Assembly (NCBI RefSeq): GCF_000981765.1
Contig: NZ_CP010975.1
Location: 558,001 to 622,000, forward strand
Origin: Kangiella geojedonensis
Lineage (GTDB): Bacteria > Pseudomonadota > Gammaproteobacteria > Enterobacterales > Kangiellaceae
Length of the DNA stretch: 64,000 nucleotides
Reading direction: 5' to 3'
Below, one piece after another: positions 20,935-44,245 of the stretch. The stretch's first letter is position 1, and each line of letters starts with the position of its first letter. A model generated the notes under the pieces. It was not told the DNA's origin. It ran no database searches and saw nothing but the letters and a program-made list of their open reading frames with translations. The translations under genes and the position numbers were made by a program.

Positions 20935-21890
20935 ATACATTCGTAACTTTATTAAAACGTGAATACTGGGAAAGTAAAACCAGTTTCGTATGGGTGCCAC
21001 TCGTTATTACAGGGATAACGCTCTTTACAGCGGTACTGGGGCTAATCATTGTGTCTACCGGTAATATCGAAACGGTTGAATATGGTTCCCACGATTTAGG
21101 TAGTCTGTTTAAGCTCTATGACGTTTCGGTAGACTCGGATATCAAAGCCTTTGCCACTCAAAGTGCATTATATTCAGGCGTTTACACCTACTACTTTGTT
21201 TTGGCGATTGTAGGATTCTTTTACTGCTTGGGTGCTTTGTATGACGACAGAAAAGATAAAAGTATTTTGTTTTGGAAGTCGATGCCTGTGTCGGACTCTC
21301 AAACAGTGCTGTCAAAGTTAGTATCGGTGACAGTGGTAGCGCCACTGCTTTACTGGTTGGTGATTATAACCACTAATTTTTTAATGCTGATTATTGGGAC
21401 CATATTTGCATGGTTGTCAGGAGTCGATGCGTGGAGCGCTTTATGGGCAAACTCAGGCTTTTTTAAAATTGCCGCCTATCAATTTGCTGCTATTTATATG
21501 GCAATGTTTTGGGCAATACCATTTGTCGGATACTTACTATTGGTCTCAAGCTGGACCAAAAAAGTGCCTTTATTAGTCGCGACCGTACCACCAGTATTGG
21601 TTGTTATAGCGGAGGGGATGATTTTCAAAACCGCACATGTTATTAGCTTCCTAGGCGAAAAGATGTTTGGTGTGGTGCAAGCGCTAGTGGCCCCATTTAA
21701 CTCTCTAGCAAGAGAGTTTTCGCAGAAGCGAGCTGATGTGGAAGATGATATCCCTATTTTTGACGAGTTTGAATTCATGTCTTTTGGTCAACAGTTTCAA
21801 GATAGCGGCTTTTGGGTTGGTTTAATTCTTGGCGCAGCGATGATTGCCGCTGCTATTTATATTCGTCGTTTCCGTGACGAAGCGTTTTAA
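20931..21890 (+). CDS. ABC-2 type transporter permease
   Basis: A 319-residue membrane protein with about six hydrophobic segments (near 20-43, 85-105, 133-160, 180-205, 214-232 and 297-313). The opening (TLLKRELYWESK-like: LLKREYWESKTSF) and the long periplasmic loop after the first segment are typical of ABC-2 permeases. The block DRKDKSILFWKSMPVSDSQT is a family hallmark. Start codon overlaps the ATPase stop (ATGA). It should form the membrane half of the exporter; the substrate is unknown, although YtrA-linked exporters are often induced by cell-wall or membrane stress. Confidence 0.9.
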   Translation: MNTFVTLLKREYWESKTSFVWVPLVITGITLFTAVLGLIIVSTGNIETVEYGSHDLGSLFKLYDVSVDSDIKAFATQSALYSGVYTYYFVLAIVGFFYCLGALYDDRKDKSILFWKSMPVSDSQTVLSKLVSVTVVAPLLYWLVIITTNFLMLIIGTIFAWLSGVDAWSALWANSGFFKIAAYQFAAIYMAMFWAIPFVGYLLLVSSWTKKVPLLVATVPPVLVVIAEGMIFKTAHVISFLGEKMFGVVQALVAPFNSLAREFSQKRADVEDDIPIFDEFEFMSFGQQFQDSGFWVGLILGAAMIAAAIYIRRFRDEAF

Positions 21891-21917
21891 TCGACACGGA
21901 ATCTATAGGAGTAAGAG

Positions 21918-22106
21918 ATGACTTATAACAGGAAAACAAGTAAGCGTGTGAACCAAATTTGTTTGTACATCGCAATTGCGGCAATAGGCTATACAGTAGC
22001 TGCTAAGTTAAACCGAGTACAACCAGAAGTAGGGGTTCTGGACAGTTTAGAAACTGTCCAGACAATTCAAAAAGGCTTTAAAAGTTTTTTATCAAATGTT
22101 GATTAA
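21918..22106 (+). CDS. Small single-pass membrane protein, fourth gene of ABC operon
   Basis: A 62-residue protein with one hydrophobic segment (about residues 15-27, LYIAIAAIGYTVA), a basic N terminus and a soluble tail. A good ribosome binding site (TAGGAGTAAGAG) lies before the ATG, and it follows the permease by 27 bases, so it is probably the last gene of the GntR-ABC operon. I do not recognise it. Its coding sequence contains a perfect 12-bp inverted repeat (22037-22062). Confidence 0.7.
   Translation: MTYNRKTSKRVNQICLYIAIAAIGYTVAAKLNRVQPEVGVLDSLETVQTIQKGFKSFLSNVD
22037..22062. repeat. Perfect 12-bp inverted repeat inside a small gene
   Basis: TCTGGACAGTTT (22037-22048) and AAACTGTCCAGA (22051-22062; last base a62) with a two-base AG spacer. 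It lies within codons of the 62-residue protein, near its 3' end. It could be an operator, a recombination or protein-binding site, or an RNA hairpin limiting expression. Confidence 0.65.
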
Positions 22107-22421
22107 ATAATATCGAACGATTGTTGGTAGCATTTGCTGGAAAATGTTACAGACTTATATCTAGTAAGACACCCTTCCTAATCTCGGAGAGTATGTGGTG
22201 AAGATACCCTTACTCTCCATCTATTATCCTAATACAGTCATCTTTTTTAGTGTGATTTTTTTAAGTTTAGCCGTCTAAACTCTTCGCTCTGTTATATTTC
22301 TTGCTAAAAAGTGGAGATTATTGATAGTATGCAAATTAACAAGTGGTATGACGTCTTATGGAAAGCCACTTACGAATAATGTAATAAACAGCTGATTCCT
22401 GTCGATGGGGGAAGGAATTAT
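22107..22421. other. 315-base intergenic region before the DUF1302 gene
   Basis: Contains a hairpin, GGAGAGTA (22186-22193) with TACTCTCC (22211-22218), enclosing a small GGT/ACC stem, followed after about 20 bases by a T-rich stretch; it may end the ABC operon. A 16-codon frame (22329-22379, MQINKWYDVLWKATYE) with GGAG upstream is too short to call. The rest should hold the promoter of the DUF1302 module; GGGGGAAGGA precedes the start at 22422. Confidence 0.5.
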
Positions 22422-24323
22422 ATGAATAGAAATAAACCTCTAATGACCTTATCTAAGATTGCTGCTGGTGTTTCTTTGGCGGTGGCCGCATCTGCATCTA
22501 ATGCAGTGGGTTGGGAAAGTGAAAACTTCGATTATAGCTTTGACTCCACTATTTCTGTGGGTGCGAGCATGCGTGTTGAAGAACGTGACCGAAACTTAGT
22601 TGGTAAAGCAAATCTTTATCAACTTGAGACCGGGATGCCTATTACGAACTTATACGGCTCAGGTGTGGTCCCAGACGGCGCTTGGTCTAATAACTCTGAT
22701 GACGGCAACTTGAACTTTGACAAAGGTGATTTCTTCTCTCAGGTAATCAAGGGTACTCACGAATTCGATATGCGCCATAAAGATGGCGACTATGGTTTCT
22801 TCGCTCGTGGTTTGTGGTACTACGATCGTGTCCTTATGGATAAAGAGTTACGATTCCGAGACTTAGATACATATCCTGAAGGCGCTTACGCCGCTGGTGA
22901 TACGACTGCCCGTAAAGAACAAGGTTATGATGCTCGTATGCTCGATGTTTATGCATGGGCTAACTTTGAAGTCGGTGACTACAGCATTTTACAAGTTCGC
23001 TTGGGTGAGCAGGTCGTGAGCTGGGGCGAAAGTACTTTCATTCAGCATAGTTTATCTGAAGCTAACGCCGTTGATTTAAGAACACTTAGAAACCCCGGTG
23101 CAGAATTAAAAGAAGCGTTTATTCCTTCTAGCATGTTATGGGCGTCTATTGACCTTTCTGAAAGTTGGTCAGCACAAGCTTTTTATCAATTTGAATGGGA
23201 GCCAGTTCGCACAGATGAGCCGGGCACCTATTTTGCAACTCGTGACTTCCTAGGGCTTAAAGGCTCTGAAGTACACTTAGGTTTTGCTCAGTTCCCAGAA
23301 GGTCAGCCTGGAACCGTTGCGATACGTCGTGACACTCGTGAAGCTGACGATAATGGGCAATATGGTATGAAGCTTGGCTATTTCACCGAAGGTGGAACTG
23401 AGTGGGGTTTCTACTACATGAATTATCATAACCGTCGACCTATTATTTCAGCAAATGCTGCCGATAATACGGGAACGGTTTATGGTTTCTTAGAATACCC
23501 TGAAGATATCCAGATGGGTGGTGTGAGCTTCAATACAGCAACTGATAGTGGCCTATCGATTGCTGGTGAAATGTCTTACCGTAAAGATGAACCTTTGCAG
23601 GTCGATGATGTAGAGCTATTATTTGCTACGCTTGAGCCAATTGGTCAGGTTCCTAGTGGAACTAGCCAGGTTGCTAATGGTGTTGGCCTAGGTGATGAGA
23701 TTTCAGGCTATCGTTTGCATGATACCATTCAGGCTCAGATGACCATCACTAATCTATTGGGATCTGTGTGGGGATCTGACCAAACCGTCTTCTTAATTGA
23801 AGTTGGTATGAATAAAATATTAGACATGCCTGAAAAGAGTGAACTTCGATATGAAGCCGAGGGTACTTTCCGTTCAGGTAACCCAGCACGTGGTGTTGAT
23901 GCTAATGGTAATGGTACTGTAGGCGGTGTGTTTGAGTTAGCGCCTCCAGGCAGTACACCTTGTGGCTTTACTAACCCGAATAATGGCCAGCGTGTCACAA
24001 CCGAGTGTGAAGGTACAACGGATGGATTCGCTGACGATTTCTCGTGGGGTTATCGTATAGCAATGCGTTGGGACTACAACGATGTATTTAGTGGCTGGAA
24101 TATGCAACCAAGAATCGTATTCCAACATGATGTAAAAGGTAATACACCTGCACCTATTTCGAACTTCTTAGAAGATCGTCAGTCTGTAGCACTAGGCACA
24201 AGTTTTGATTACCAACGTCGTTGGAAGGTCGATTTCGCATACAATGCATTCTTTGGAGCTGAAGATAAAAACCTAATCTCGGACCGAGATTACGTCTCTT
24301 TGGCACTAAGTTATTCATTCTAA
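22422..24323 (+). CDS. DUF1302 family outer membrane protein
   Basis: A 633-residue secreted protein. Signal peptide about residues 1-28 (ending SASNAVG), then DYSFDSTISVGASMRVEERD, the family-typical opening. The chain is rich in alternating aromatic strands and ends in a terminal phenylalanine (LALSYSF), as expected of an outer membrane beta-barrel. DUF1302 proteins usually stand next to DUF1329 proteins; this one is 18 bases before it. In other bacteria such pairs occur near genes for steroids, terpenes or other hydrophobic compounds. Role inferred: outer membrane part of a transport module. Confidence 0.9.
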   Translation: MNRNKPLMTLSKIAAGVSLAVAASASNAVGWESENFDYSFDSTISVGASMRVEERDRNLVGKANLYQLETGMPITNLYGSGVVPDGAWSNNSDDGNLNFDKGDFFSQVIKGTHEFDMRHKDGDYGFFARGLWYYDRVLMDKELRFRDLDTYPEGAYAAGDTTARKEQGYDARMLDVYAWANFEVGDYSILQVRLGEQVVSWGESTFIQHSLSEANAVDLRTLRNPGAELKEAFIPSSMLWASIDLSESWSAQAFYQFEWEPVRTDEPGTYFATRDFLGLKGSEVHLGFAQFPEGQPGTVAIRRDTREADDNGQYGMKLGYFTEGGTEWGFYYMNYHNRRPIISANAADNTGTVYGFLEYPEDIQMGGVSFNTATDSGLSIAGEMSYRKDEPLQVDDVELLFATLEPIGQVPSGTSQVANGVGLGDEISGYRLHDTIQAQMTITNLLGSVWGSDQTVFLIEVGMNKILDMPEKSELRYEAEGTFRSGNPARGVDANGNGTVGGVFELAPPGSTPCGFTNPNNGQRVTTECEGTTDGFADDFSWGYRIAMRWDYNDVFSGWNMQPRIVFQHDVKGNTPAPISNFLEDRQSVALGTSFDYQRRWKVDFAYNAFFGAEDKNLISDRDYVSLALSYSF

Positions 24324-24341
24324 TAAGGGTATTAACAGTTT

Positions 24342-25718
24342 ATGGCTAATATTATGAATAAATGGTTATTGGCGAGTGCAGTCGCTTCGGTACTCTTTTC
24401 GGGTGTGGCATCTGCAAAAGTGTCAGAAGAAAAGGCGGCTCAGCTAGGTGGAGATGTTTATACCCCAATGGGCTCCGAAAGAGCTGGTAATGAAGATGGC
24501 TCTATTCCTGCATGGGATGGTGGCATCCAGCAAGCTCCGGAAGGGTATGAGGTCGGTGATCATCATCCTGATCCATTCGCTGACGATGAAGTGGAATTCA
24601 CTATTACTGCTTCTAACTACAAAGATTACGAAGATTTCTTGACGGTCGGTCAGGTTGCATTATTTAAGACTTACCCTGAAAACTTCAAAATGAACGTCTA
24701 CCCAAGTCGCCGTTCGGCATCATTCCCGCAACACGTTTATGATGCGATTAAAGCAAATGCTCCAAGAGCAGAGCTAGTTCAAGGTGGTAATGGTATTAAA
24801 GGTGCTTCAATTGGCGTGCCTTTCCCGTTCCCTGAGAATGGCTTACAACTTATTTGGAACGCAATTACTCGTTATCGTGGTGTATCCGTTGAACGTGAAG
24901 TGGGTCAGGCATCACCATTACCTGATGGCGACTTCGTGTTAGTGAAACTGAAAGATGAGCTTCACCACATCTACAACGAGCCTGATATGACGCCAGAAAA
25001 GTTGGCTGAAGGCAATGTTCTATTTTTATTCCGTCAAATCGTAGAAGCGCCAGCGCGTCTAGCAGGTACAGCACTTTTAGTTCATGAAACTATGGACCAG
25101 GTAAAGGAACCGCGTAAGGCTTGGACATACAACCCTGGCCAGCGCCGTGTTCGTCGTGCACCAAACGTTGCATATGATGCTCCAGGTACAGCTTCGGACG
25201 GTTTAAGAACAACTGATGACTTTGATATGTTCAATGGTGCGCCAGATCGTTACAACTGGACAATCAAGGGCAAGAAAGAAGTTTATATCCCTTATAACAA
25301 TTATAAACTTCACTCTGATCAGCTTGAGTACGATGAAATCGTGAAGCCAGGTGTTATCAATTCAGACTTAGTGCGCTATGAGAAGCACCGTGTATGGGTT
25401 CTCGAAGCTGACTTGAAGCCTGATACTCGTCATCAATATAAAAAGCGTGTTTTCTATATTGATGAAGATAGCTACCAAATCGTCGCAGAGGAAATGTACG
25501 ATGAGCGTGGTGATTTATGGCGTGTTGCGCAAGCTTACCCAATTAATTACTACGAAGTGCCTACACTGTGGTCAACGTTAGAAACTTATTATGATCTTCC
25601 TTCGGGCCGTTACCTTGTTATCGGTTTGGACAACCAAGAAGATATGTACGACTTCAATGTTGATTTTAGAGGTTCGCACTTCACTCCATCGGCACTGCGT
25701 AGAATTGGTCGTCGATAA
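24342..25718 (+). CDS. DUF1329 family periplasmic/outer membrane-associated protein
   Basis: A 458-residue secreted protein with signal peptide (about 1-25, ending GVASA). It carries the family hallmarks LGGDVYTPMGSERAGNEDGS, IPAWDGGI, and the late GDLWRVAQAYPINYYEVP. The fold is expected to be LolA/LolB-like, a hydrophobic-cavity half-barrel that could carry lipids or other greasy molecules across the periplasm; that is family knowledge plus inference. It follows the DUF1302 gene by 18 bases, and the YCF48-like gene follows after a hairpin. Confidence 0.9.
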   Translation: MANIMNKWLLASAVASVLFSGVASAKVSEEKAAQLGGDVYTPMGSERAGNEDGSIPAWDGGIQQAPEGYEVGDHHPDPFADDEVEFTITASNYKDYEDFLTVGQVALFKTYPENFKMNVYPSRRSASFPQHVYDAIKANAPRAELVQGGNGIKGASIGVPFPFPENGLQLIWNAITRYRGVSVEREVGQASPLPDGDFVLVKLKDELHHIYNEPDMTPEKLAEGNVLFLFRQIVEAPARLAGTALLVHETMDQVKEPRKAWTYNPGQRRVRRAPNVAYDAPGTASDGLRTTDDFDMFNGAPDRYNWTIKGKKEVYIPYNNYKLHSDQLEYDEIVKPGVINSDLVRYEKHRVWVLEADLKPDTRHQYKKRVFYIDEDSYQIVAEEMYDERGDLWRVAQAYPINYYEVPTLWSTLETYYDLPSGRYLVIGLDNQEDMYDFNVDFRGSHFTPSALRRIGRR

Positions 25719-25727
25719 TATAACATC

Positions 25728-25750
25728 AGCGGTCGGGTTCACCGGCCGCT
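25728..25750 (+). terminator. Hairpin between DUF1329 and YCF48-like genes
   Basis: AGCGGTCGG (25728-25736) pairs with CCGGCCGCT (25742-25750), one G-T wobble, loop GTTCA, followed by TTGCTTTT. It may attenuate transcription inside the operon, lowering the last two genes relative to the first two, or protect the upstream message. Confidence 0.65.
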
Positions 25751-25781
25751 TTGCTTTTAACTCCAAGAAAAAACCAAAACA

Positions 25782-26798
25782 ATGAAAACAGTCCTACAAG
25801 TTCTATTTAGTGGCTTGGCTCTTGTAGCATCCTTTGTGGGTCAGGCAGAACCAGCAATCATAGCTCCAAAAGCTAAAGATTCGTTATTATTGGATATCGT
25901 TAAGGTTTCTGATGATCGTTATGTTGCAGTCGGCCAACGAGGCCATATTTTGGTCTCTGATAACCAGGGAAACTCTTGGCAACAAGTAGCCGTACCCGTC
26001 AGCGTTAATCTTACCGCTATTGATTTCTTAGATGAAAACCATGGTGTCGCTGTTGGCTTTGACCAAACCATCTTGCTGACTGAGGATGGGGGGGCAACTT
26101 GGAGCAAGAGCCATCAAGAGATTTCTAATTTTCAACCTGCTTTATTCAGTGTTTTGTATGCTTCGAAAGAGAATATCACCGCTGTGGGGTCATACGGACT
26201 TTACCTAGAGTCAAATGATGGCGGTCTGACATGGGATAATCGTGAGGTTACCAGTCTAAGTGATGCTTATGATGGTTTTAGTCACTTCTATGACCTAGAA
26301 AGACTAAACGATAACACCTGGTATATCGCGGGTGAAAAGTTTATTGCAGAGGCCACAGAAGATGGCGATGAGTCTAGCAAAGGCATGATCGCCGTAACGA
26401 AGGATGCAGGAAAAACTTGGGAAAAAGTTAATTCTCCTTATGAAGGCTCGTTTTTTGGGATTACTGTTAAAAACAGCGATATCTATGTTTATGGCTTAAG
26501 GGGTAACCTATTCCACTCTACCAACCAAGGTGATTCTTGGCAGCGTATCCGTCTGAATAATGAAGCGGGCCTACATGACATGATCGTTCTTGATGACGGT
26601 CAGCTAGTTTTAGTCGGGACTGGCGGTGTATTAGTGACTAAAGATGGTAGTAACATTACCTTAAAAAAGCGTACGGATTTAAAAGGGCGTGCTGCTTTGG
26701 TTAGTGTTGGTGTTGAGCGTTATATTATTGTTGGTGAAGGTGGAGTAGAAACTTTCGCTAGCACGGACTTAGACAAACCAGTAGAGAAAGGTCAATAA
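25782..26798 (+). CDS. YCF48-like (Asp-box / BNR repeat) secreted protein
   Basis: A 338-residue protein with signal peptide (about 1-22, ending VGQAEP). Five Asp-box repeats are visible: SDNQGNSW, TEDGGATW, SNDGGLTW, TKDAGKTW and STNQGDSW, spaced about 45-80 residues, which indicates a beta-propeller like plant and cyanobacterial YCF48. The stop is followed after one base by the RND start, so the two are tightly coupled. In comparable loci this protein accompanies RND, DUF1302 and DUF1329 genes; it is probably the periplasmic scaffold. No enzymatic site is apparent. Confidence 0.9.
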   Translation: MKTVLQVLFSGLALVASFVGQAEPAIIAPKAKDSLLLDIVKVSDDRYVAVGQRGHILVSDNQGNSWQQVAVPVSVNLTAIDFLDENHGVAVGFDQTILLTEDGGATWSKSHQEISNFQPALFSVLYASKENITAVGSYGLYLESNDGGLTWDNREVTSLSDAYDGFSHFYDLERLNDNTWYIAGEKFIAEATEDGDESSKGMIAVTKDAGKTWEKVNSPYEGSFFGITVKNSDIYVYGLRGNLFHSTNQGDSWQRIRLNNEAGLHDMIVLDDGQLVLVGTGGVLVTKDGSNITLKKRTDLKGRAALVSVGVERYIIVGEGGVETFASTDLDKPVEKGQ

Positions 26799-26799
26799 G

Positions 26800-29421
26800 A
26801 TGGCGAACAATAAACTAGAACCTTTAGTTAAGTCTTTATTTTTCTCTAAACGTGGCCTCTGGGTGGCTTTATTTGCCATCGTTACGGTGGTCATGGCTTA
26901 TTTTGTGTCTCAATTAAGAATTGATGCAAGCTTTGAAAAAAATATCCCTCTCAAGCATGAGTACATGCAAACCTACCTGCAGTATCAAGAAGAGTTTGGT
27001 GGCGCTAACCGTGTTTTTGTAGCGCTTGAAGCGAAAGAAGGCGAAATCTTTACCGAGAGCTTCTTTGAAGCACTGAGGCAAGCGGATGACCGTGTTGAAG
27101 GCATTGAAGGCGTCAACCAGTCACAGGTGCAGTCACTTTTTTCCCCTTCGGTTCGTTATATTGAAGCGAGCGAGCAAGGCTTAGAAGGTGGCCCAGTTAT
27201 CCCACCTGAATTTGAGCAAGTCGATAAAGAGCAAGCTTTCACAAAGGTGAGAGAGAATATACTAAAAGCTGGAATACGAGGCCGTTTAGTTTCTAATGAC
27301 TTTACCTCGGCGATGATTTCTGCACAGCTATTCTCTGAATATAATGATCCTAATGCTGAGCTTCAGCTTGACGCCGACGGGAATGCCGCTTCACAGATGG
27401 TGCAAACTGATTATGTGAAAGTTGCACACCAGCTGGAGAAACTCCGAACCGATATTGAGGCGGAGTATCCAGATATCGAAGTCCATATCATTGGTTTTGC
27501 TAAAATGATTGGGGATGTCAGCGATGGTGCTGGTAATGTCATCTTCTTCTTTTTAATAGCTTTCTTGATCACGGCACTGTTAGTTTTCTGGTACTCACGC
27601 TCTGTAAAATTAACATTGTTACCGCTTCTCACCTCTAGTGTTGCAGTAGTTTGGCAGCTGGGTATTCTAACTGCTTTAGGTTATGGCATAGACCCAATGT
27701 CTATCTTGATTCCGTTCTTAATCTTCGCGATTGGCGTCAGTCATGGCGTACAGATGATTAATGGCGTACAACACAATGTGGGCAAGGGATTAAAAGTATT
27801 TGATGCGTCGATCGTTGCTTGTGCCGGATTGATCGTGCCCGGCGGCGTGGCTTTGCTGAGTGATACTATCGGCTTCTTAACGCTACAGTTGATCGAGATT
27901 GATATCATTCGTGAACTGGCTATTACGGCCAGTATTGGTGTTGCCGTATTAATCTTAACGAACCTAATTTTACTGCCGTTATTACTTTCTTATACTCACT
28001 TTAGCGATAAATTTGTAACAAGTGTGCAAAAGCGTGAGAAGGCTCACGAAGCTATTTGGCATAAGTTGGCGGTGTTCGCTAAGCGTCCTATGGCAACAAT
28101 AGTTGTCGTTATTAGTGTTCTGTTAGGCTTGCTAGGTTATTGGGGCTCACAAAACATGAAGGTTGGTGATTTACATGCCGGTGCTCCAGCACTCAAGCAG
28201 GACTCGCCTTATAATATCGATACTAAGTTTGTGACTGATAAATATTCGATTGGTACCGACGTTATTTCGATACTGGCGGAAACTAAGGCCGATGGTTGTA
28301 CTTATTACAACATTATGGAAACTATTGATGATTTCCAGTGGCAGCTAGCCAATGTCGAAGGAGTGCAGTCAACATTAAGCTTGCCTCAAATTTCGAAAGT
28401 GGTGAATGGTCTGTTAAGCGAAGGGAATCTGAAGTGGAAAATGCTACCGAAAGATGAGGCTGTGCTTCCATATACAATTGCCCGTGTTGAAACCAGTACG
28501 GGGCTCTTGAACTCGGGTTGTAGCGTTATGCCGGTTATGGTGTTCTTAAAGGATCATAAAGCTGAAACTATTGAGCGTGTTGTTGGTTCAGTGAAGTCTT
28601 TTCAAGCCAACTATTTGGAAAAAGAGAAAAGTAAGATACTCAGCGCTGTACCTGAGTCATTTTCTCAGCTTGATGATGAGCAACAAGAAACTATCAGTAA
28701 CAAGCTAGACTCATTAATGAATAGCTACGCTGAACTTTCTTACAGTGAAGATTCTGAACGACCATCTCTGGAAACTTATGTTGGTGAGCAACTAGCGGAA
28801 AGCTCTGAAGTAAGCACTGAGCAGGTCTCCGAAATTCAAGCTATTATTAAGGAGCAGCTACCTGCAAGTGGCTTTAAGCCGGTTAAGTTTAGGTTGGCGA
28901 CAGGCGCTGTAGGTGTTATGGCTGCGACCAACGAGGCGGTCGAAGCGGCACAAGTGCCAATGATGATTTGGGTTTACTTGGCGGTAACTCTGTTATGTCT
29001 AATCAGCTTCCGTTCGGTTAGAGGGACAATTTGTGTGGTATTACCGCTGGTTGTGGTGTCATTGTTGGCACAAACCTTGATGACATGGTTGGAAATCGGT
29101 CTAACGGTGGCTACACTGCCTGTGATTGCGCTGGGTGTCGGAATTGGTGTTGATTACGGTATCTATATCTTCTCGCGAATGGTTGGCTTTATACGAGAAG
29201 GGCGCTCGGTATCAGAGGCTTATTTTGAAACATTAAAGTTAACCGGTAATGCCGTCCTGTTTACGGGGTTAACCTTGGCGATTGGCGTCAGCACCTGGAT
29301 CTTCTCGGCTCTACAGTATCAAGCTGACATGGGAATCATGCTTACCTTTATGTTCTTAGTGAACATGTTGGGTGCAATTTTCTTATTACCCGCATTAGCT
29401 GCATTATTCTATCGTCGCTAA
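26800..29421 (+). CDS. RND superfamily (MMPL-type) transporter
   Basis: An 873-residue inner membrane protein with the two-half RND layout. One membrane segment at about 18-35, a large periplasmic domain to about 245, five segments to about 400, a sixth repeat start at about 430, a second periplasmic domain, and a final set from about 725. It has the SSD/MMPL hallmark LGVGIGVDYGIYIFSRM (about 780). It lacks the length (about 1030) of AcrB-type pumps. Two periplasmic cysteines are present (C506 and C573 region). With the upstream three genes it suggests transport of a hydrophobic compound between membranes. Confidence 0.92.
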   Translation: MANNKLEPLVKSLFFSKRGLWVALFAIVTVVMAYFVSQLRIDASFEKNIPLKHEYMQTYLQYQEEFGGANRVFVALEAKEGEIFTESFFEALRQADDRVEGIEGVNQSQVQSLFSPSVRYIEASEQGLEGGPVIPPEFEQVDKEQAFTKVRENILKAGIRGRLVSNDFTSAMISAQLFSEYNDPNAELQLDADGNAASQMVQTDYVKVAHQLEKLRTDIEAEYPDIEVHIIGFAKMIGDVSDGAGNVIFFFLIAFLITALLVFWYSRSVKLTLLPLLTSSVAVVWQLGILTALGYGIDPMSILIPFLIFAIGVSHGVQMINGVQHNVGKGLKVFDASIVACAGLIVPGGVALLSDTIGFLTLQLIEIDIIRELAITASIGVAVLILTNLILLPLLLSYTHFSDKFVTSVQKREKAHEAIWHKLAVFAKRPMATIVVVISVLLGLLGYWGSQNMKVGDLHAGAPALKQDSPYNIDTKFVTDKYSIGTDVISILAETKADGCTYYNIMETIDDFQWQLANVEGVQSTLSLPQISKVVNGLLSEGNLKWKMLPKDEAVLPYTIARVETSTGLLNSGCSVMPVMVFLKDHKAETIERVVGSVKSFQANYLEKEKSKILSAVPESFSQLDDEQQETISNKLDSLMNSYAELSYSEDSERPSLETYVGEQLAESSEVSTEQVSEIQAIIKEQLPASGFKPVKFRLATGAVGVMAATNEAVEAAQVPMMIWVYLAVTLLCLISFRSVRGTICVVLPLVVVSLLAQTLMTWLEIGLTVATLPVIALGVGIGVDYGIYIFSRMVGFIREGRSVSEAYFETLKLTGNAVLFTGLTLAIGVSTWIFSALQYQADMGIMLTFMFLVNMLGAIFLLPALAALFYRR

Positions 29422-29451
29422 ATAACCTCAACTGGTTGTAGCAGTTGTAAA

Positions 29452-29486
29452 AAATGGCACCTTAATCGTAAATTAAGGTGCCATTT
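29452..29486. terminator. Intrinsic terminator after the RND gene
   Basis: A perfect 15-bp stem (29452-29466 with 29472-29486) with loop CGTAA; the 3' arm ends in ATTT and no longer T-run follows, so termination rests on the very strong stem. It closes the DUF1302-RND unit. Confidence 0.8.
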
Positions 29487-29560
29487 CGTATCTAAATGTC
29501 CTAGAATTAGGTAACGTTGCAGTAACGTGATTTAACCCATAATTATTCTTGGACAGGACA

Positions 29561-32500
29561 ATGGCCAGTGTAAGCAATACTTCCAAATTGTTGGAAAACG
29601 TCCAGCAAATCTGCGATCAAAAATTCTCAAAAAAACAAGCTGAGCTTGTAAAGCAATTCTCCCAACTTATTTACTCTAGTGTTTCAGAATATGAATTCAG
29701 TGAGCGTACTGCTGAAGAGTATTTTGACTCTATCAGTAGTTTATGGGGCTTTATACAAGATTTCGATGGCTCGTCTAAGGTTAGGGTATTTAACCCTGAT
29801 CTTAAGAAAGATGGTTGGGAGTCACGCAACACCATCATTCAAATCAACCATAAAGATATTCCGTTTTTAGTAGACTCTATTCGTATGGAGTTAAACCGTC
29901 ATGGTGTTGATGTGTTACTTCACATCCACGTGCCGATGTACATTAAGCGTACTAAAACTGGCAAAGTGTCGCAGTTAGACGTGTCGTACGATAAAGGAAC
30001 TAAAGAAGGCGAAAACATAGAAACGCCTATGTACTTAGAAGTTGATCGAATGATTGACCCTGAGTTCATGAAATTGCTAGAAGAAGATTTAGTTCGAATT
30101 TTGCGTGACGTTCGCTCTGCTGTAGCTGACTGGAAGCCGATGCGTGAAAAAATGAACAGCATTGTTTCCGAGTTAGAATCGTCGCCACCGCCAATGCGTC
30201 AAGATCGTATTCAAGAAGCTGTAGATTTCTTACGGTGGGTTAAAGAAAACCACTTTGTTTTCATGGGCGCGAGAACCTATGACTTAAAAGATGAAGGCGA
30301 TGACCTTTACTTGAGGTCTGTGAAAGGCTCTGGTCTAGGAATACTTGCTGATGAGCGCAAGTATTCAGAATACCAACTATCCCGTTCTCCGAAAGGCGCG
30401 CAAAAACTAGCCTTGTCGACGGACCATATTCTCGTGCTAACCAAAACAAGTACATTATCGACCGTACACCGTTCGAGCCATGTTGATTATATTGGTGTGA
30501 AACGCTTCAGCGAAAAGGGTGAAGTTATTGGCGAACATCGCTTCTTCGGTTTGTTTACCTCTGCTGCCTATAACATGGATCCGCAGTTAATCCCGGTCTT
30601 GCGTAAGAAAATCAATAATGTCTTAACAGAGTCTAAGCTGAAGCCTGGCGGTCATGATTACAAAGCGCTGAAAAACATTTTGGAAACTTATCCACGAGAT
30701 GAGCTTTTCCAAATTCCGACCTTGAAGTTACTTGATGTTGTCATGGGGATTCTGCACATTCAAGAGCGTCGCCAGGTGCGTGCTTTTGTCCGTCGCGACC
30801 CTTTTGGCCGTTACTTCTCAGTACTGACGTTCGTTCCTCGAGATACTTACAACACGCGTATTCGTCTGAAAATGACGAATATTCTATCAGAAACCTTTGA
30901 TAGTAAAGGTGAGATAGAATTTACCACCTATTTCTCAGAGTCAAACTTAGTCCGAACTCATTTCCGCGTGCCTGTGGAAAATACAGAAACTATTGAGTAT
31001 GACATCGAACAGCTTGAAACTGAGCTGGCAAAGTCTGCTTTAAGCTGGGAAGAGGTCTTATCCGACGAAATAAATAAAGCTTTTGACGGGGAAGAGGCCG
31101 CGGTACTGTTGAAAAAATACCGCCAGGCGTTCCCGCCTAGCTTCCAGAATCAGCAGAGCGTCGACTCTGCAATGATTGATATCAAAAACATTGAAAACCT
31201 TAGTGATGATTGGCCGTTGGGCATGTTCTTGTATCGCTCAGGAGATGGGGAGTCGTTACGCTTTAAGCTATATCATAAAGATACGCCATTGCCATTGTCG
31301 GCAGTGATGCCGATGCTCGAAAATATGGGGCTAACGGTTATTGATGAAACGCCCTACGAGGTATCATCAGAATTTTTGGGTGATTATCGAATTCTTGATT
31401 TTGATGTGCAATACACAGAATCAGACATTGATGTCGAAACGATTCGTGACAAATTCCACAAAGCTTTTGGTAAGGCTTGGTATAAACAAGCTGAGAATGA
31501 TGGGTTTAATCGTCTCATTATGGCGGCAGGCTTGGATTGGCGACAAGTTGCCATACTTCGCGCTTACGCTAAGTATATGTGGCAGATAAACTTTACCTTT
31601 AGTCAGGTTTACATCGAACAGACCTTATCTCAGTACCCTGAAATTGCAACTGGCTTGGTTGAGTTGTTTGAGCTTAAGTTTAATCCGCACGAGGAGTTTA
31701 GCCAGAGAAAGTATGCACTGAAGAAAAGTCAGCTGTTGAAAGACGTTCAAGACGTTGAGAGTCTCGACCAAGATAAGATCATTAACAAGTACATTGAGTT
31801 AATTGAGGCGACTTTACGAACAAACTTCTTCCAAGCTGATGAGAATGGTAAAGATAAGCCGTACATTTCATTTAAGCTGAACCCAAGCATTATTACAGAA
31901 ATGCCAAAACCTGTACTGATGTACGAAATTTTTGTTTACTCGCCTCGTGTTGAAGGTGTGCACTTACGCGGTGGCAAGGTCGCTCGTGGTGGACTACGCT
32001 GGTCAGATCGCCGTGAAGATTTTAGAACCGAAATTTTGGGCTTGGTAAAAGCTCAGCAGGTTAAAAACTCTGTGATTGTTCCTGTCGGTGCCAAAGGTGG
32101 TTTTGTTTGTAAACAACTACCAAGCTCAGGTGGCCGAGAAGCGTTCTTTGCAGAAGGTGTCGAGTGCTATAAAACCTTCATTCGAGCGTTGCTGGATATT
32201 ACCGATAACTATGTTAATGACAAGTTAGTGCACCCTCGCGATGTGGTTGTTCATGATGAGCCTGATGCTTATTTGGTAGTGGCGGCCGATAAAGGAACAG
32301 CGACATTCTCTGATATTGCTAACGGTATTTCAGAAGAGTATGGACACTGGTTAGGCGACGCATTCGCTTCAGGCGGCAGTAATGGTTATGACCATAAAGC
32401 TATGGGTATTACTGCTAAAGGGGCTTGGGAGTCCGTTAAGCAGCACTTCCGCGAGATGGGAGTCGATTGCCAGAATGAGGATTTCACTGTTGTTGCTTGC

Positions 32501-34399
32501 GGTGATATGTCTGGTGATGTGTTTGGTAATGGTATGTTGTTATCGAAGCATATTCGTTTACAAGTTGCCTTTAACCATATGCATATCTTTGTGGATCCAA
32601 ATCCAGATGCCGCAGAAAGCTATAAAGAGCGTGAACGCTTATTTAATCTGCCACGCTCTGGTTGGAATGATTACAACAGTAAACTTATCTCTAAGGGCGG
32701 TGGGATATTTGAACGTAGCGCCAAAAAGATTGAGCTAACACCTGAAATTCAAGAAATGTTGGGTGTTAAGGCTAAGTCTTTAGCGCCAAATGAGTTTATC
32801 AATGCCGCACTCAAAATGAAGGCTGATCTGTTCTGGAACGGTGGTATCGGAACCTATGTGAAGTCTTCTAAAGAGACCCACCAACAAGTCGGTGATCGAG
32901 CTAACGATAATTTGCGTGTCGACGGTAAAGACATGCAGGTTAAAGTGATAGGCGAGGGTGGTAATCTAGGTTGTACACAGTTGGGGCGTATAGAGTACAT
33001 GCAGCACGGAGGCCGTGCTAACGCTGACTTTATCGATAATGCTGGTGGTGTTAACTGCTCTGATAATGAAGTTAATATCAAGATTTTATTGAATGGTGTT
33101 GTGTCTGATGGCGGTCTAACCGTAAAACGTCGTAATAATTTACTGGCGCGTATGACCGATGAAGTATCGGATATTGTGATACAAGACAACTACCGTCAAA
33201 CCCAGTCTATCAGTATTACCGAATCTCGTGCACCGTCGATGGTAAAAGAGCATATGCGCTTTATCCACGGGCTTGAGAAAACGGTTGGTTTAGATCGAAG
33301 TCTTGAATTCTTGCCAAGCGATGAAGAGTTGCTTGAACGTGAAGCGAATGGCCGCGGGCTAACTCGGGCAGAATTAGCGGTACTACTGGCTTATGGAAAA
33401 ATCGAGCTGAAAGATTCGCTCTGTATTCCAGAAGTCACAGAGAATAGTTACTTCGAAAGTTATTTGCTTGAGTATTTCCCAAAACCACTACGCAAAAACT
33501 ACGTCGATAATATGAAGAAGCATCCACTCAAGGATGAAATTATCGCCATGTGTTTAGCCAATGAAATGGTTAACTTAATGGGGACGAATTTTGCCTTCCG
33601 AGTGATTGATGAAGTTGGTGCCAATATTGGTGAAGTTGCTCAGTGTTACGTCATGGCAAAAGAAACGTTTAACCTAACAGGGCTGTGTGAGAGCATCGAA
33701 GCGCTGGATAACAAGGTTCCAGCTGAAGTCCAGACCAAGATGATGTTCCAAGCACGTCGCATTGTACGTCGCGCAACCCGTTGGTTTGTTCGTAACCGGA
33801 GTAAAGATCAGACGATTGAAGAAGTCATTAGTTTCTTTAAGAAAGGCGTGTCTGAACTTCAGAAAAATGTCCATAAGACTCTGGAAGCGAAAGAAGCTCA
33901 GGGTATTGAAAAAGAAATTAAGTCGCTGGTTGAGCAGGGAGTTCCAGAAAAGCTTGCAAGACAAGTGGGTTACCTCAGCACCATGTTCTCATCAATGGAT
34001 ATTGTTGAGTTATCGACTCAATATAAGCTGCCGATTTTGACGGTGGCCGAAGTTTACTACAAGCTTGGTGCGCAAATCGATCTGCACTGGTTCTTAAATC
34101 AAATTATTGCGCAGCCTGTATCTAACCATTGGCAAGCCTTTGCCCGTGCAGCGTTCCGAGAGGAGCTGGATTATCAGCAACGTAACTTGATTGAGGCGGT
34201 TCTGCCATTAACGGCTAAATACAAGTCTCCTGAGACCCGTATTAAGCACTTCTTGGCTGATCATGATGATTTATTGTCGCGTTGGAGTGAGATGGTTAGT
34301 GACTTTAAGCAAAGCAATACACATGAATTTGCAAAATTCTCGGTAGCACTCAGAGAACTGCAGATTCTCGTGCAGCGAAGTCATCGTCTCATAAAATAG
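29561..34399 (+). CDS. gdhB: NAD-specific glutamate dehydrogenase, GDH-180 class
   Basis: A 1612-residue enzyme that oxidises glutamate to 2-oxoglutarate with NAD+. Size and layout match the large GDH of Pseudomonas aeruginosa and Streptomyces: about 700 N-terminal residues with ACT-like regulatory modules, a catalytic core from about 700 to 1200 (GGLRWSDRREDFRTEILGLV, VPVGAKGGFV, CGDMSGDVFGNGML, NGGIGTYVK), and a helical C-terminal domain. I start at ATG 29561 with AGGACA just upstream; a TTG-started frame from 29549 uses the ribosome binding site as codons. It is transcribed alone between two terminators. It probably feeds amino acid carbon into the TCA cycle, fitting a proteolytic lifestyle. 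Confidence 0.97.
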   Translation: MASVSNTSKLLENVQQICDQKFSKKQAELVKQFSQLIYSSVSEYEFSERTAEEYFDSISSLWGFIQDFDGSSKVRVFNPDLKKDGWESRNTIIQINHKDIPFLVDSIRMELNRHGVDVLLHIHVPMYIKRTKTGKVSQLDVSYDKGTKEGENIETPMYLEVDRMIDPEFMKLLEEDLVRILRDVRSAVADWKPMREKMNSIVSELESSPPPMRQDRIQEAVDFLRWVKENHFVFMGARTYDLKDEGDDLYLRSVKGSGLGILADERKYSEYQLSRSPKGAQKLALSTDHILVLTKTSTLSTVHRSSHVDYIGVKRFSEKGEVIGEHRFFGLFTSAAYNMDPQLIPVLRKKINNVLTESKLKPGGHDYKALKNILETYPRDELFQIPTLKLLDVVMGILHIQERRQVRAFVRRDPFGRYFSVLTFVPRDTYNTRIRLKMTNILSETFDSKGEIEFTTYFSESNLVRTHFRVPVENTETIEYDIEQLETELAKSALSWEEVLSDEINKAFDGEEAAVLLKKYRQAFPPSFQNQQSVDSAMIDIKNIENLSDDWPLGMFLYRSGDGESLRFKLYHKDTPLPLSAVMPMLENMGLTVIDETPYEVSSEFLGDYRILDFDVQYTESDIDVETIRDKFHKAFGKAWYKQAENDGFNRLIMAAGLDWRQVAILRAYAKYMWQINFTFSQVYIEQTLSQYPEIATGLVELFELKFNPHEEFSQRKYALKKSQLLKDVQDVESLDQDKIINKYIELIEATLRTNFFQADENGKDKPYISFKLNPSIITEMPKPVLMYEIFVYSPRVEGVHLRGGKVARGGLRWSDRREDFRTEILGLVKAQQVKNSVIVPVGAKGGFVCKQLPSSGGREAFFAEGVECYKTFIRALLDITDNYVNDKLVHPRDVVVHDEPDAYLVVAADKGTATFSDIANGISEEYGHWLGDAFASGGSNGYDHKAMGITAKGAWESVKQHFREMGVDCQNEDFTVVACGDMSGDVFGNGMLLSKHIRLQVAFNHMHIFVDPNPDAAESYKERERLFNLPRSGWNDYNSKLISKGGGIFERSAKKIELTPEIQEMLGVKAKSLAPNEFINAALKMKADLFWNGGIGTYVKSSKETHQQVGDRANDNLRVDGKDMQVKVIGEGGNLGCTQLGRIEYMQHGGRANADFIDNAGGVNCSDNEVNIKILLNGVVSDGGLTVKRRNNLLARMTDEVSDIVIQDNYRQTQSISITESRAPSMVKEHMRFIHGLEKTVGLDRSLEFLPSDEELLEREANGRGLTRAELAVLLAYGKIELKDSLCIPEVTENSYFESYLLEYFPKPLRKNYVDNMKKHPLKDEIIAMCLANEMVNLMGTNFAFRVIDEVGANIGEVAQCYVMAKETFNLTGLCESIEALDNKVPAEVQTKMMFQARRIVRRATRWFVRNRSKDQTIEEVISFFKKGVSELQKNVHKTLEAKEAQGIEKEIKSLVEQGVPEKLARQVGYLSTMFSSMDIVELSTQYKLPILTVAEVYYKLGAQIDLHWFLNQIIAQPVSNHWQAFARAAFREELDYQQRNLIEAVLPLTAKYKSPETRIKHFLADHDDLLSRWSEMVSDFKQSNTHEFAKFSVALRELQILVQRSHRLIK

Positions 34400-42824: not shown

Positions 42825-42842
42825 TTCAAACATACGTTTGAA
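42825..42842. promoter_or_regulatory. PsrA-like operator before fadIJ
   Basis: TTCAAAC (42825-42831) and GTTTGAA (42836-42842) are exact complements with spacer ATAC. This fits the known PsrA (TetR family fatty-acid regulator) consensus of CAAAC and GTTTG half sites with a short spacer. A half site GTTTGAA also occurs at 42794-42800. No psrA gene is seen in this window. Confidence 0.75.
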
Positions 42843-42895: not shown

Positions 42896-44245
42896 ATGAG
42901 CGAGACTAGCGCTTCCAGTACTACCAAAAAAAGTACCACCAAAAAGACGACGCGTAGCACGAAGCAAGATCGCGTTGCGATTGTTTCAGGGTTAAGAACA
43001 CCTTTCGCCAAGCAGGCGACTCATTTTAGAGGCATTAATGCTATCGAGCTTGGGAAAATGGTGGTGAATGAACTTATCCAAAAGACCGAGCTGGATCCTA
43101 AGGTCATTGAACGTGTGGTATTTGGCCAAGTGGTTATCTTGCCTGAAGCTCCAAACATTGCTCGTGAAATTGTTCTGGGCACGCCTATGGATGTTCACAC
43201 CGATGCTTACTCGGTATCACGCGCTTGCGCTACCAGTTTTCAGAGTGTCGCTAGTTTAGCCGAGTCAATCATGGCGGGTGACGTGTCTGTTGGTATTGCT
43301 GGCGGAGCAGACTCCTCATCAGTAGTGCCGATTGGCGTGAGTAAGAAATTGTCTTTGGCGTTAGTTGATTTGCAAAAAGCAAGAACCTTTGGCCAAAAGC
43401 TGTCGATTCTTAAAACGCTTCGCCCTAAAGACTTGATGCCTGTGCCTCCTGCGATTAAAGAATACTCCACAGGGTTAACCATGGGGCAAAACGCTGAGCA
43501 AATGGCTCGTGATCGTGGAATTACTCGCCAAGAACAGGATGAATTAGCTCATCGTTCTCATACGTTAGCGGCTCAAGCATGGGAAGAGGGCAAGTTAGAC
43601 GATGAAGTCATGACGGCTTATGTCGAGCCTTATACGAAAGAGCCGCTGTCACGAGATAATGTGGTTCGCTTTAACTCAACGCTTGAGGGTTATGCCAAGT
43701 TACGCCCTGCGTTTGACAGAAAGTACGGTACCTTAACGGCGGCTAATTCAACGCCATTAAGCGATGGTGCTGCTGCCGTGGTATTGATGAAAGAGTCACA
43801 AGCAAAAGCACTAGGCTATGAGCCTCTGGGCTATATCCGAAGCTATGCTTTCTCAGCGATAGAAGCTGCTCATGACATGCTGATGGGACCTTCTTACGCA
43901 ACGCCTAAAGCTCTGAAAAAGGCTAAGTTGAAACTGAGTGATTTAGACTTGATTGATATGCATGAAGCTTTTGCTGCGCAAACGATTTCCAATATCCAAG
44001 CCTTTGGTTCGACTCAATTTGCTAAAGAAAAGCTGGGGCAGAGAACCAAGATTGGTGACATCGATATGGACAAGTTTAATGTGCTGGGGGGATCGCTGGC
44101 ATATGGGCATCCTTTCGCAGCGACGGGTGCGCGAATGATTACTCAAACACTCCACGAGCTGAAGCGACGTGGCGGTGGATTAGGGTTAACCACGGCGTGT
44201 GCCGCTGGTGGTCTTGGTGCAGCAATGATTTTGGAGGTTGAATAA
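42896..44245 (+). CDS. fadI: Acetyl-CoA C-acyltransferase, beta-oxidation thiolase
   Basis: A 449-residue thiolase that cleaves 3-ketoacyl-CoA. The acylated cysteine is C111 in SRACATSF; the second pair is GHPFAATG and [10 protein letters not shown] at the C terminus. The closest type is FadI (436 residues in E. coli) because it pairs with a FadJ-like alpha subunit. Residues 1-24 form an extra Ser/Thr/Lys-rich tail ([17 protein letters not shown]) that is unusual for a thiolase. Its stop overlaps the fadJ start region by one base, so the two subunits are co-translated. Confidence 0.94.

Follow-up and report, generated by a model that had tools for sequence, protein, structure and literature searches.

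A four-gene cassette in Kangiella geojedonensis

We analyzed a window of 64,000 nucleotides from the Kangiella geojedonensis genome (NCBI RefSeq assembly GCF_000981765.1, contig NZ_CP010975.1, positions 558,001 to 622,000 of the forward strand); "the window" denotes this whole stretch, and the coordinates of its features are counted from its first letter. At 22422–29421, it encodes a DUF1302 outer-membrane beta-barrel, a DUF1329 periplasmic LolA-like carrier, a YCF48-like beta-propeller, and an RND/MMPL transporter, which we regard with near certainty as a trans-envelope cassette of the AmeABCD type and which may import a fatty acid or a similar hydrophobe. The AmeA-like barrel gene (22422–24323, + strand; 633 amino acids) matched PF06980 (E = 9.8e-173), and its product has an apparent signal peptide, as judged by eye. 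It is followed on the same strand by the AmeB-like carrier gene (24342–25718; 458 amino acids; PF07044, E = 1.2e-154) and the AmeC-like propeller gene (25782–26798; 338 amino acids; PSII_BNR, PF14870, E = 1.7e-24), both with apparent signal peptides, and by the AmeD-like RND gene (26800–29421; 873 amino acids; PF03176, E = 7.9e-32). The four families are thus present together in the AmeABCD order, the features of that system being those given in PMC6394551. A preliminary sequence-only reading had proposed this module, and all four open reading frames (ORFs) were confirmed on the + strand, with their families assigned by Pfam. Its description of the genes as one tight unit holds for the spacing (18, 63, and 1 nucleotides between successive genes) and for the conservation of the set, but a conserved terminator-like hairpin at 25728–25750 lies inside the unit. 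The host genome is a single contig of 2.495 Mb, in which the DUF1302 profile had one match and the DUF1329 profile had two full-length matches and one weak partial match.

Co-occurrence and gene order in other genomes

The distribution of the cassette was analyzed at two scales, both including the host. Among 61 relatives (thresholds: DUF1302, E ≤ 1e-20; full-length DUF1329, E ≤ 1e-60; RND, E ≤ 1e-20), DUF1302 and full-length DUF1329 occurred in the identical 39 genomes, and the RND gene occurred in those 39 and in one 55%-complete genome that holds just the last 70 RND residues. When two genomes whose DUF1302 matches miss the threshold are included (G022, E ~1e-15, and G032, E ~1e-13; such labels are our own for genomes and loci), the count rises to 41 of 61. 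In G037 and G048, which belong to the 39, the RND gene lies apart from DUF1302. In a class-wide sample with one genome for each of 114 genera (DUF1302, E ≤ 1e-40; RND profile, E ≤ 1e-100), DUF1302 was found in 16, RND in 17, both in 16, and neither in 97 (p = 1.3e-18), the sole RND-only genome being G163. The genes therefore do not occur independently in most genomes, and we count this co-occurrence (16 of the 17 RND-positive genomes and 39 of the 61 relatives) as support for a transporter unit. The distance between DUF1302 and RND was measured in 14 of the 16 genomes: 13 had 2.35–2.63 kb, which leaves space for DUF1329 and YCF48, and G138 had 0.24 kb. The copy numbers varied, with seven DUF1302 matches each in G083 and G156 versus three and two RND matches, respectively, and, in G138, one DUF1302 match alongside six for RND, which mostly scored low.

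Gene order was examined at loci of named genomes anchored on DUF1329, which are the best 80 of 591. The order barrel, carrier, propeller, pump was found by script in 57 of the 68 loci with sufficient flank, or in 58 when the script-missorted locus L122 is counted. The exceptions included Pseudomonas and Marinobacter loci with the barrel and carrier only, and a Pseudidiomarina propeller–pump pair on the opposite strand next to DUF1329. Among 72,556 plasmid records, DUF1329 occurred in 41 and RND in 40, and 37 were common to the 40 listed for each. In the window, the gene after the cassette encodes a large NAD-specific glutamate dehydrogenase (GDH; 29549–34399, + strand; PF05088, E = 1.9e-265). 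Of the 80 named loci, 32 also have GDH 3′ of the cassette (L059–L092, mostly Alteromonadales; hereafter GDH-type loci), as do 28 of the 29 loci of the host's family (L029–L057), the remaining locus stopping at a contig end.

Protein folds and family assignments

The AlphaFold model of the DUF1302 protein (pLDDT 80.7) is a barrel, and its top structural matches were Occ/OprD channels (Z = 18.3, rmsd 3.7, 308 residues), although a common fold alone demonstrates no function. FadL was absent from the 50 listed structure matches of this model, a result that is uninformative on the FadL fold. The DUF1329 model (pLDDT 88.7) best matched LolA3 (9tp6; Z = 20.6, rmsd 2.7, 237 residues, within model residues 165–456), and it also matched 4z48 (Z = 19.5, rmsd 3.0, 230 residues), the deposited structure of a DUF1329-family protein. 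This fold and a PF17131 score of 52.5 bits (cut-off 30; E = 6.2e-14) place the protein in the LolA-like superfamily, with the likeness covering model residues ~163–457. The third protein matched a solved Ycf48-like chain (E = 3e-16) and belongs to the propeller family PF14870; it scored 77.8 bits against the equivalog cut-off of 326 bits for NF010237 and was rejected as a genuine Ycf48 photosystem II assembly factor. These results fit the view of the sequence-only reading that barrel, carrier, propeller, and RND protein form a trans-envelope transporter.

The RND protein has approximately 12 hydrophobic segments and two large loops. Its best curated subfamily was TIGR00921 (HAE3), at 178.4 bits, which is below the cut-off of 351.9, so the protein was not assigned to TIGR00921; it may belong to the AmeD lineage within HAE3. 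An identity as HpnN or BstA was rejected, because the scores for TIGR03480 (70.5 against 751.85 bits), NF052374 (17.5 against 1100 bits), and NF045600 (23.8 against 1400 bits) were all far under the cut-offs. In an alignment of 40 members (the window, 30 named-genome loci, and 9 plasmid loci), all 40 had Ser-His at positions 314–315, in the fourth segment, and Asp-Tyr at 785–786, in the tenth. MmpL-type pumps have proton-carrying Asp-Tyr pairs in both halves, and because the pair is kept in one half here, the proton relay of this RND family looks one-sided in the alignment. A regular-expression scan of four other RND stretches in the same genome for these Asp-Tyr and Ser-His motifs detected none, but the stretches were partial and the pattern narrow, so their absence is unproven. 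The window protein also has an insert of ~88 residues in its second large loop (window 28612–28869, residues ~605–690). Eight genomes of the genus, including this one, gave a match over the full 873 residues, and the insert of G013 was longer and divergent; the RND proteins of the remaining relatives were mostly ~780 amino acids long and matched in two pieces flanking the insert.

Terminators and transcription layout

An intrinsic-terminator-like hairpin with a T-rich tail (25728–25750, + strand; −17.2 kcal/mol) lies between DUF1329 and YCF48. A terminator was detected in this gap in all 29 family loci, the window included, versus none of 145 shuffles, and the stem sequence varied from genus to genus. 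The same detector found one in 26 of the 32 GDH-type loci and, among the other named loci, in 13 of 34 (shuffles, 0–1%). It found none in 70 gaps between DUF1302 and DUF1329 or in 59 gaps between YCF48 and RND, gaps that are also shorter (means of 32–70 versus 154–193 nucleotides); L116, L122, and L136 were excluded from the gap counts because of ambiguous ORF assignment. Based on this layout, we propose that the cassette comprises two expression units, barrel–carrier and propeller–pump, split by an intrinsic terminator. Because the terminator parts the cassette in this way, one propeller–pump engine may serve several barrel–carrier pairs. The split into two halves also fits the layout described for Pseudomonas putida, in which the halves are at two loci (PMC10866462).

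A strong intrinsic terminator follows the RND gene (29455–29483, + strand; detector match; RNA folding z = −7.74 for 29420–29500). In view of this terminator, GDH was not accepted as a member of the operon and is probably a separate transcription unit. A terminator was detected in the RND–GDH gap in just 15 of 28 family loci and in 25 of the 32 GDH-type loci.

FadL absence and linkage to fadIJ

The genome of K. geojedonensis had no match to FadL (PF03349) at E ≤ 0.001, the DUF1302 gene included, and the Escherichia coli control was positive. None of 37 family genomes had a strong FadL match, and three had weak partial matches; FadJ was present in all 37, and the cassette in 30 by the thresholds used. 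The window itself contains linked genes for a FadI-like thiolase and a FadJ-like beta-oxidation enzyme (42896–46398, + strand; assigned by Pfam), 13.5 kb downstream of RND. The earlier statement that no degradation genes are adjacent is accordingly accurate for the immediate neighbors but overlooks this pair, the linkage of which is conserved within the family. In the four family genomes inspected (G013, G017, G023, and G024), the genes run in the order cassette, GDH, SDR, Bat/MoxR-like genes, fadIJ, an arrangement not seen in G049, from another family. The RND start was within 30 kb of the fadJ start in all 21 family genomes with both genes on one contig (30 were examined, of which 9 had them split over contigs). 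Similarly, in all eight genomes of other families with both genes on one contig, the FadL start was within 14 kb of fadJ; this set was drawn from 12 FadL-bearing genomes, four of them split over contigs. G058, the sole FadJ match of which was 37% identical, was omitted from the list, and G038, G040, and G043 have FadL without a FadJ match. Counted by genus, FadL or the cassette was present in 22 of 24 FadJ-positive genera versus three of six FadJ-negative genera (p = 0.041), and the 24 FadJ-positive genera included 5 with both, 9 with the cassette only, 8 with FadL only, and 2 with neither (p = 0.047).

FadR-like sites and the upstream region

FadR-like sites were scored against AACTGGTCNGACCAGTT, which we take to be the FadR operator consensus. 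Within the 420 bp preceding the DUF1302 match, sites with ≤ 4 mismatches occurred in 17 of the 32 GDH-type loci versus 6 of 413 control windows taken from the same loci, a comparison in which members of a single clade do not count as independent. None of 1,119 permuted palindromes reached 17 loci, the maximum being 5. In two further genera of the family, each of the five genomes likewise had a 3-mismatch site upstream of the cassette. Four Shewanella loci (L082, L084, L085, and L092) had 6–7 mismatches, which agrees with the published Shewanella FadR regulon, given as fadIJ and fadL only (PMC3223726, PMC5343134). Three further candidates were set aside. A FadR-like sequence in the RND–GDH gap (AACTGGTTGTAGCAGTT, 3 mismatches) was restricted to the closest relatives and lies beside a terminator hairpin, so it was not counted; sites before fadI had 4 to 7 mismatches across 21 entries, none of them clear; and the best PsrA-like palindromes before the cassette had 3–6 mismatches in 21 genomes, again none clear.

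In the window, a promoter-like pair, TTGCTA and TAGTAT separated by 18 nucleotides, was called weakly upstream of DUF1302 (22301–22330, + strand) by eye from 14 aligned upstream regions of the genus. This pair was missing from the output of a consensus promoter scan, which found 11 sites over 21850–29700 versus a mean of 15.5 in shuffles and was therefore uninformative. Just 3′ of the pair is a weakly FadR-like element conserved in the genus, AAGTGGTATGACGTCTT (22341–22357, + strand), which is the sole match at ≤ 3 mismatches in the window and was found, with a slightly relaxed pattern, in 14 of 16 genomes of the genus. A leader hairpin, ATTCCT...AGGAAT with a G-rich loop (22395–22418, + strand), covers the ribosome-binding region of DUF1302; its pattern occurred in all 16 genomes of the genus and in none of five of other genera, and the folding z of the leader was only −1.28. 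This hairpin may be a translational control element.

Gene neighborhoods at other loci and on plasmids

The sequence-only reading had suggested comparing the flanks of the module in other species, and this comparison separated the GDH-type loci (32 of 80) from the 48 others. At these 48 non-GDH loci, a cluster of AMP-binding, acyl-CoA ligase-like proteins flanked the cassette at 9, a thiolase cluster flanked it at 8, and a bacterial-lipase-like cluster lay directly upstream of DUF1302 at 8; 19 of the 48 had at least one of the three. The neighbor clusters were named by Pfam from one representative each, the GDH-type loci are the only control for these counts, and ORF cluster 10 was excluded as spurious because it consists of opposite-strand ORFs overlapping cassette genes. 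Eleven plasmid stretches were picked by hand: all four genes were present in 10, in altered order in some, and most of the 11 lay amid annotated catabolic genes (acyl-CoA dehydrogenase, AMP-binding proteins, ring-cleavage enzymes, and arylsulfatase), one not. The expectation that similar sets lie near catabolic genes was thus borne out. In the literature, DUF1302/DUF1329 pairs are described near a fatty acid-CoA ligase entry and in a phenol-hydroxylase cluster (PMC7603352, PMC7012976).

Comparison with known systems

This kind of cassette is already described, as AmeABCD, as PP_0765/0766 with PP_2018/2019, and as the "Nanopod" cluster. The module was fairly called incompletely described, although there are publications on the cassette of four genes, on a deletion mutant, and on a co-folding model (PMC6394551, PMC10866462, PMC13101534). 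AmeABCD has the four identical families in the identical order, and its RND protein is described as a distinct HAE3 lineage whose members are situated in such cassettes (PMC6394551). In Castellaniella defragrans, deletion of ameABCD lowered the yield on monoterpenes and raised the net influx of Nile Red in cells treated with carbonyl cyanide m-chlorophenylhydrazone (CCCP), from which the authors infer efflux (PMC6394551). AmeABCD is up-regulated on a monoterpene and lies in a catabolic island (PMC6394551), whereas the window copy is chromosomal, beside GDH, and linked to fadIJ; the window genome also differs in having no FadL match, and the window RND in its extra ~88-residue insert.

In P. 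putida, PP_0765, PP_0766, PP_2018, and PP_2019 are all reported to be essential on Tween 20 and are proposed to form a novel transport system (PMC10866462). Like the window, this set has a DUF1302/DUF1329 pair, a periplasmic protein, and a multidrug-efflux-type transporter (PMC10866462), a likeness at the level of gene families; its halves are at two loci, to judge from the gene numbers, whereas those in the window are contiguous with a terminator between them. The predicted contacts were strong between PP_2019 and PP_2018 and weak between PP_0766 and both PP_0765 and PP_2019 (PMC10866462). The highly expressed "Nanopod" cluster of ORM2a benzene degraders encodes a porin-like protein, DUF1329, a YCF48-related protein, and an MMPL transporter, the same components as the window, but has two additional internal genes and benzene as its suggested cargo (PMC13101534). 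Deletion of a Delftia DUF1329 gene is reported to impair growth on phenanthrene (cited in PMC13101534). In the cited parts of this literature, a fatty acid is not named as the cargo of the cassette, although Tween 20 is a fatty-acid ester; we found no literature combining YCF48 with an RND transporter. The cited parts of the cassette papers likewise do not mention an internal terminator, FadR-like sites, or a one-sided relay, for which no literature search was made.

FadL under FadR control, as described in PMC3223726 and PMC5343134, does the job that we propose for the cassette, namely admitting long-chain fatty acids through the outer membrane. The two resemble each other in the FadR-like sites of relatives and the linkage to fadIJ, and differ in that the FadL family, PF03349, is unmatched in the window genome. 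We know of no dedicated periplasmic carrier or RND engine for FadL. In NPC2/NPC1 and BstB/BstC/BstA, a soluble carrier passes a hydrophobe to an RND protein, a hand-over like the one envisaged here; the carriers and the cargo, sterols, differ, and these systems have no DUF1302-type barrel.

Cargo and direction of transport

The kind of cassette is known, and its direction of transport is debated. For the chromosomal cassette of K. geojedonensis, we favor the import of a fatty acid or a similar hydrophobe, most likely in the place of FadL, with a probability of approximately 0.5. This reading is favored because the genome has no FadL match, the cassette is linked to fadIJ, FadR-like sites precede it in relatives, and lipase, acyl-CoA ligase, and thiolase genes are neighbors at related loci. 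It is also supported by the requirement of P. putida for genes of the same families on Tween 20 (PMC10866462), and we count the LolA-like and Occ-like folds in its favor. Taken separately, a fatty acid or close hydrophobe is somewhat probable as the main cargo in this species, and inward operation has about an even chance. In the proposed mechanism, the DUF1302 barrel would take up the cargo, a fatty acid or a comparable amphipathic hydrophobe, at the outer membrane, and the LolA-like DUF1329 protein would shield it and ferry it over the periplasm. The YCF48 propeller would hold the carrier at the RND protein or position it there. Driven by protons, the RND protein would pass the cargo on to the inner membrane for use in beta-oxidation (fadIJ). 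A more specific scenario is put forward only tentatively: FadL may have been lost in the family and replaced by the cassette under a FadR-like operator, with the RND protein working inward like NPC1 through a one-sided relay (Ser-His in the fourth transmembrane segment and Asp-Tyr in the tenth) and with the terminator-separated engine shared by several barrel–carrier pairs.

Several observations weigh against import in place of FadL. The regulatory evidence is uneven: the element of the window's own genus, AAGTGGTATGACGTCTT, deviates from the assumed consensus at 5–6 positions and would be a weak operator; a scan of the whole window found sites with ≤ 4 mismatches at three other places and none before the cassette; such sites were found in none of 37 loci outside the GDH type; and all are matches to an assumed consensus, AACTGGTCNGACCAGTT. 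The p-values for FadL and the cassette by genus (0.047 and 0.041) are weak and ignore shared descent, and 5 of 30 genera have both together. The cassette is dispensable for beta-oxidation, because it is missing, by the thresholds used, from 7 of 37 family genomes, among them a 55%-complete one, and because 8 of 55 FadJ-positive relatives lack both a strong FadL match and the cassette. None of the 32 GDH-type loci, the window's own kind, has any of the three lipid-gene clusters, and their constant neighbor is GDH. The single DUF1302 match of G138, versus six RND matches, speaks against several barrels per engine.

Efflux, as proposed for AmeABCD, is the best-supported alternative, although we consider it unlikely here. 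Toxic hydrophobes in the inner membrane or periplasm would be captured by the RND protein and, with DUF1329 and YCF48 as periplasmic adaptors, passed to the DUF1302 barrel and out of the cell. The phenotype of the sole deletion mutant of a complete cassette, in yield on monoterpenes and Nile Red influx, was interpreted in this way (PMC6394551), and the solved relatives of the RND protein in the Protein Data Bank are mostly exporters and efflux pumps, as named wherever a function is given. Efflux sits less well with a barrel whose fold is closest to Occ/OprD uptake channels, with the limit on common folds noted above, and with the surroundings of related loci, which include acyl-CoA ligase, thiolase, and lipase genes and FadR-like sites. 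That P. putida fails on Tween 20 when genes of these families are mutated (PMC10866462) also points away from it, although toxicity could likewise explain the failure.

The cargo suggested by the sequence-only reading was an endogenous lipid, which would move from the inner to the outer membrane as hopanoids do with HpnN and sterols with BstABC. A LolA-like carrier combined with an RND protein does recall the logic of lipid trafficking, and the RND protein weakly matches the HpnN and BstA models, but at 70.5 of 751.85 and 23.8 of 1400 bits these scores are far under the cut-offs. The patchy spread of the cassette (16–17 of 114 genera) and its plasmid copies among catabolic genes are also unlike a house-keeping envelope route, and the missing FadL match, the fadIJ linkage, the FadR-like sites elsewhere, and the lipid-gene neighbors point instead to exogenous fatty acids or similar hydrophobes. 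We therefore consider an endogenous cargo improbable and the least supported of import, efflux, and endogenous-lipid transport. It is very improbable that the proteins are an envelope or outer-vesicle assembly factor with an indirect effect on transport, an explanation prompted by the DUF1302 and DUF1329 proteins in Delftia nanopod preparations (PMC3110197) and by the name of the ORM2a "Nanopod" cluster (PMC13101534). Presence in a preparation is not function. Moreover, the invariant Asp-Tyr pair of the RND protein, of the proton-carrying kind of MmpL, is expected of a pump.

To our knowledge, it is not settled how long-chain fatty acids and other hydrophobes traverse the periplasm once past the outer membrane, and DUF1302 and DUF1329 are still named "unknown function" in Pfam. 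If import in the place of FadL is correct, the cassette would constitute a way into the cell that relies on a dedicated periplasmic carrier and an inward-working RND protein. The small genome of K. geojedonensis, with no FadL match and a single DUF1302 gene, is a clean setting for testing import.

A second DUF1329 gene and other observations

The second full DUF1329 gene of the genome (L016, 9014–10408) is 55% identical to the window copy, which gives the genome two carriers and one barrel. No barrel, propeller, or RND gene was found alongside this orphan within the 19 kb inspected, and a small regulator upstream of it is MarR-like by appearance. A FadR-like site with 3–5 mismatches was present upstream of the orphan gene in all 14 genomes inspected, with ≤ 4 mismatches in nine, in a set without a control. 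Upstream of fadI, the window has a perfect palindrome, TTCAAACATACGTTTGAA (42825–42842), presumably PsrA-like, which was found with 0–2 mismatches in 20 of 21 genomes, the 21st being a fragment of 130 nucleotides. Another RND gene of the genome (G000:C1:2411132-2413474; L003, L023, and L024) adjoins a gene whose small product has a weak match to the DUF1329 profile, and such weak matches to small proteins were common among the relatives.

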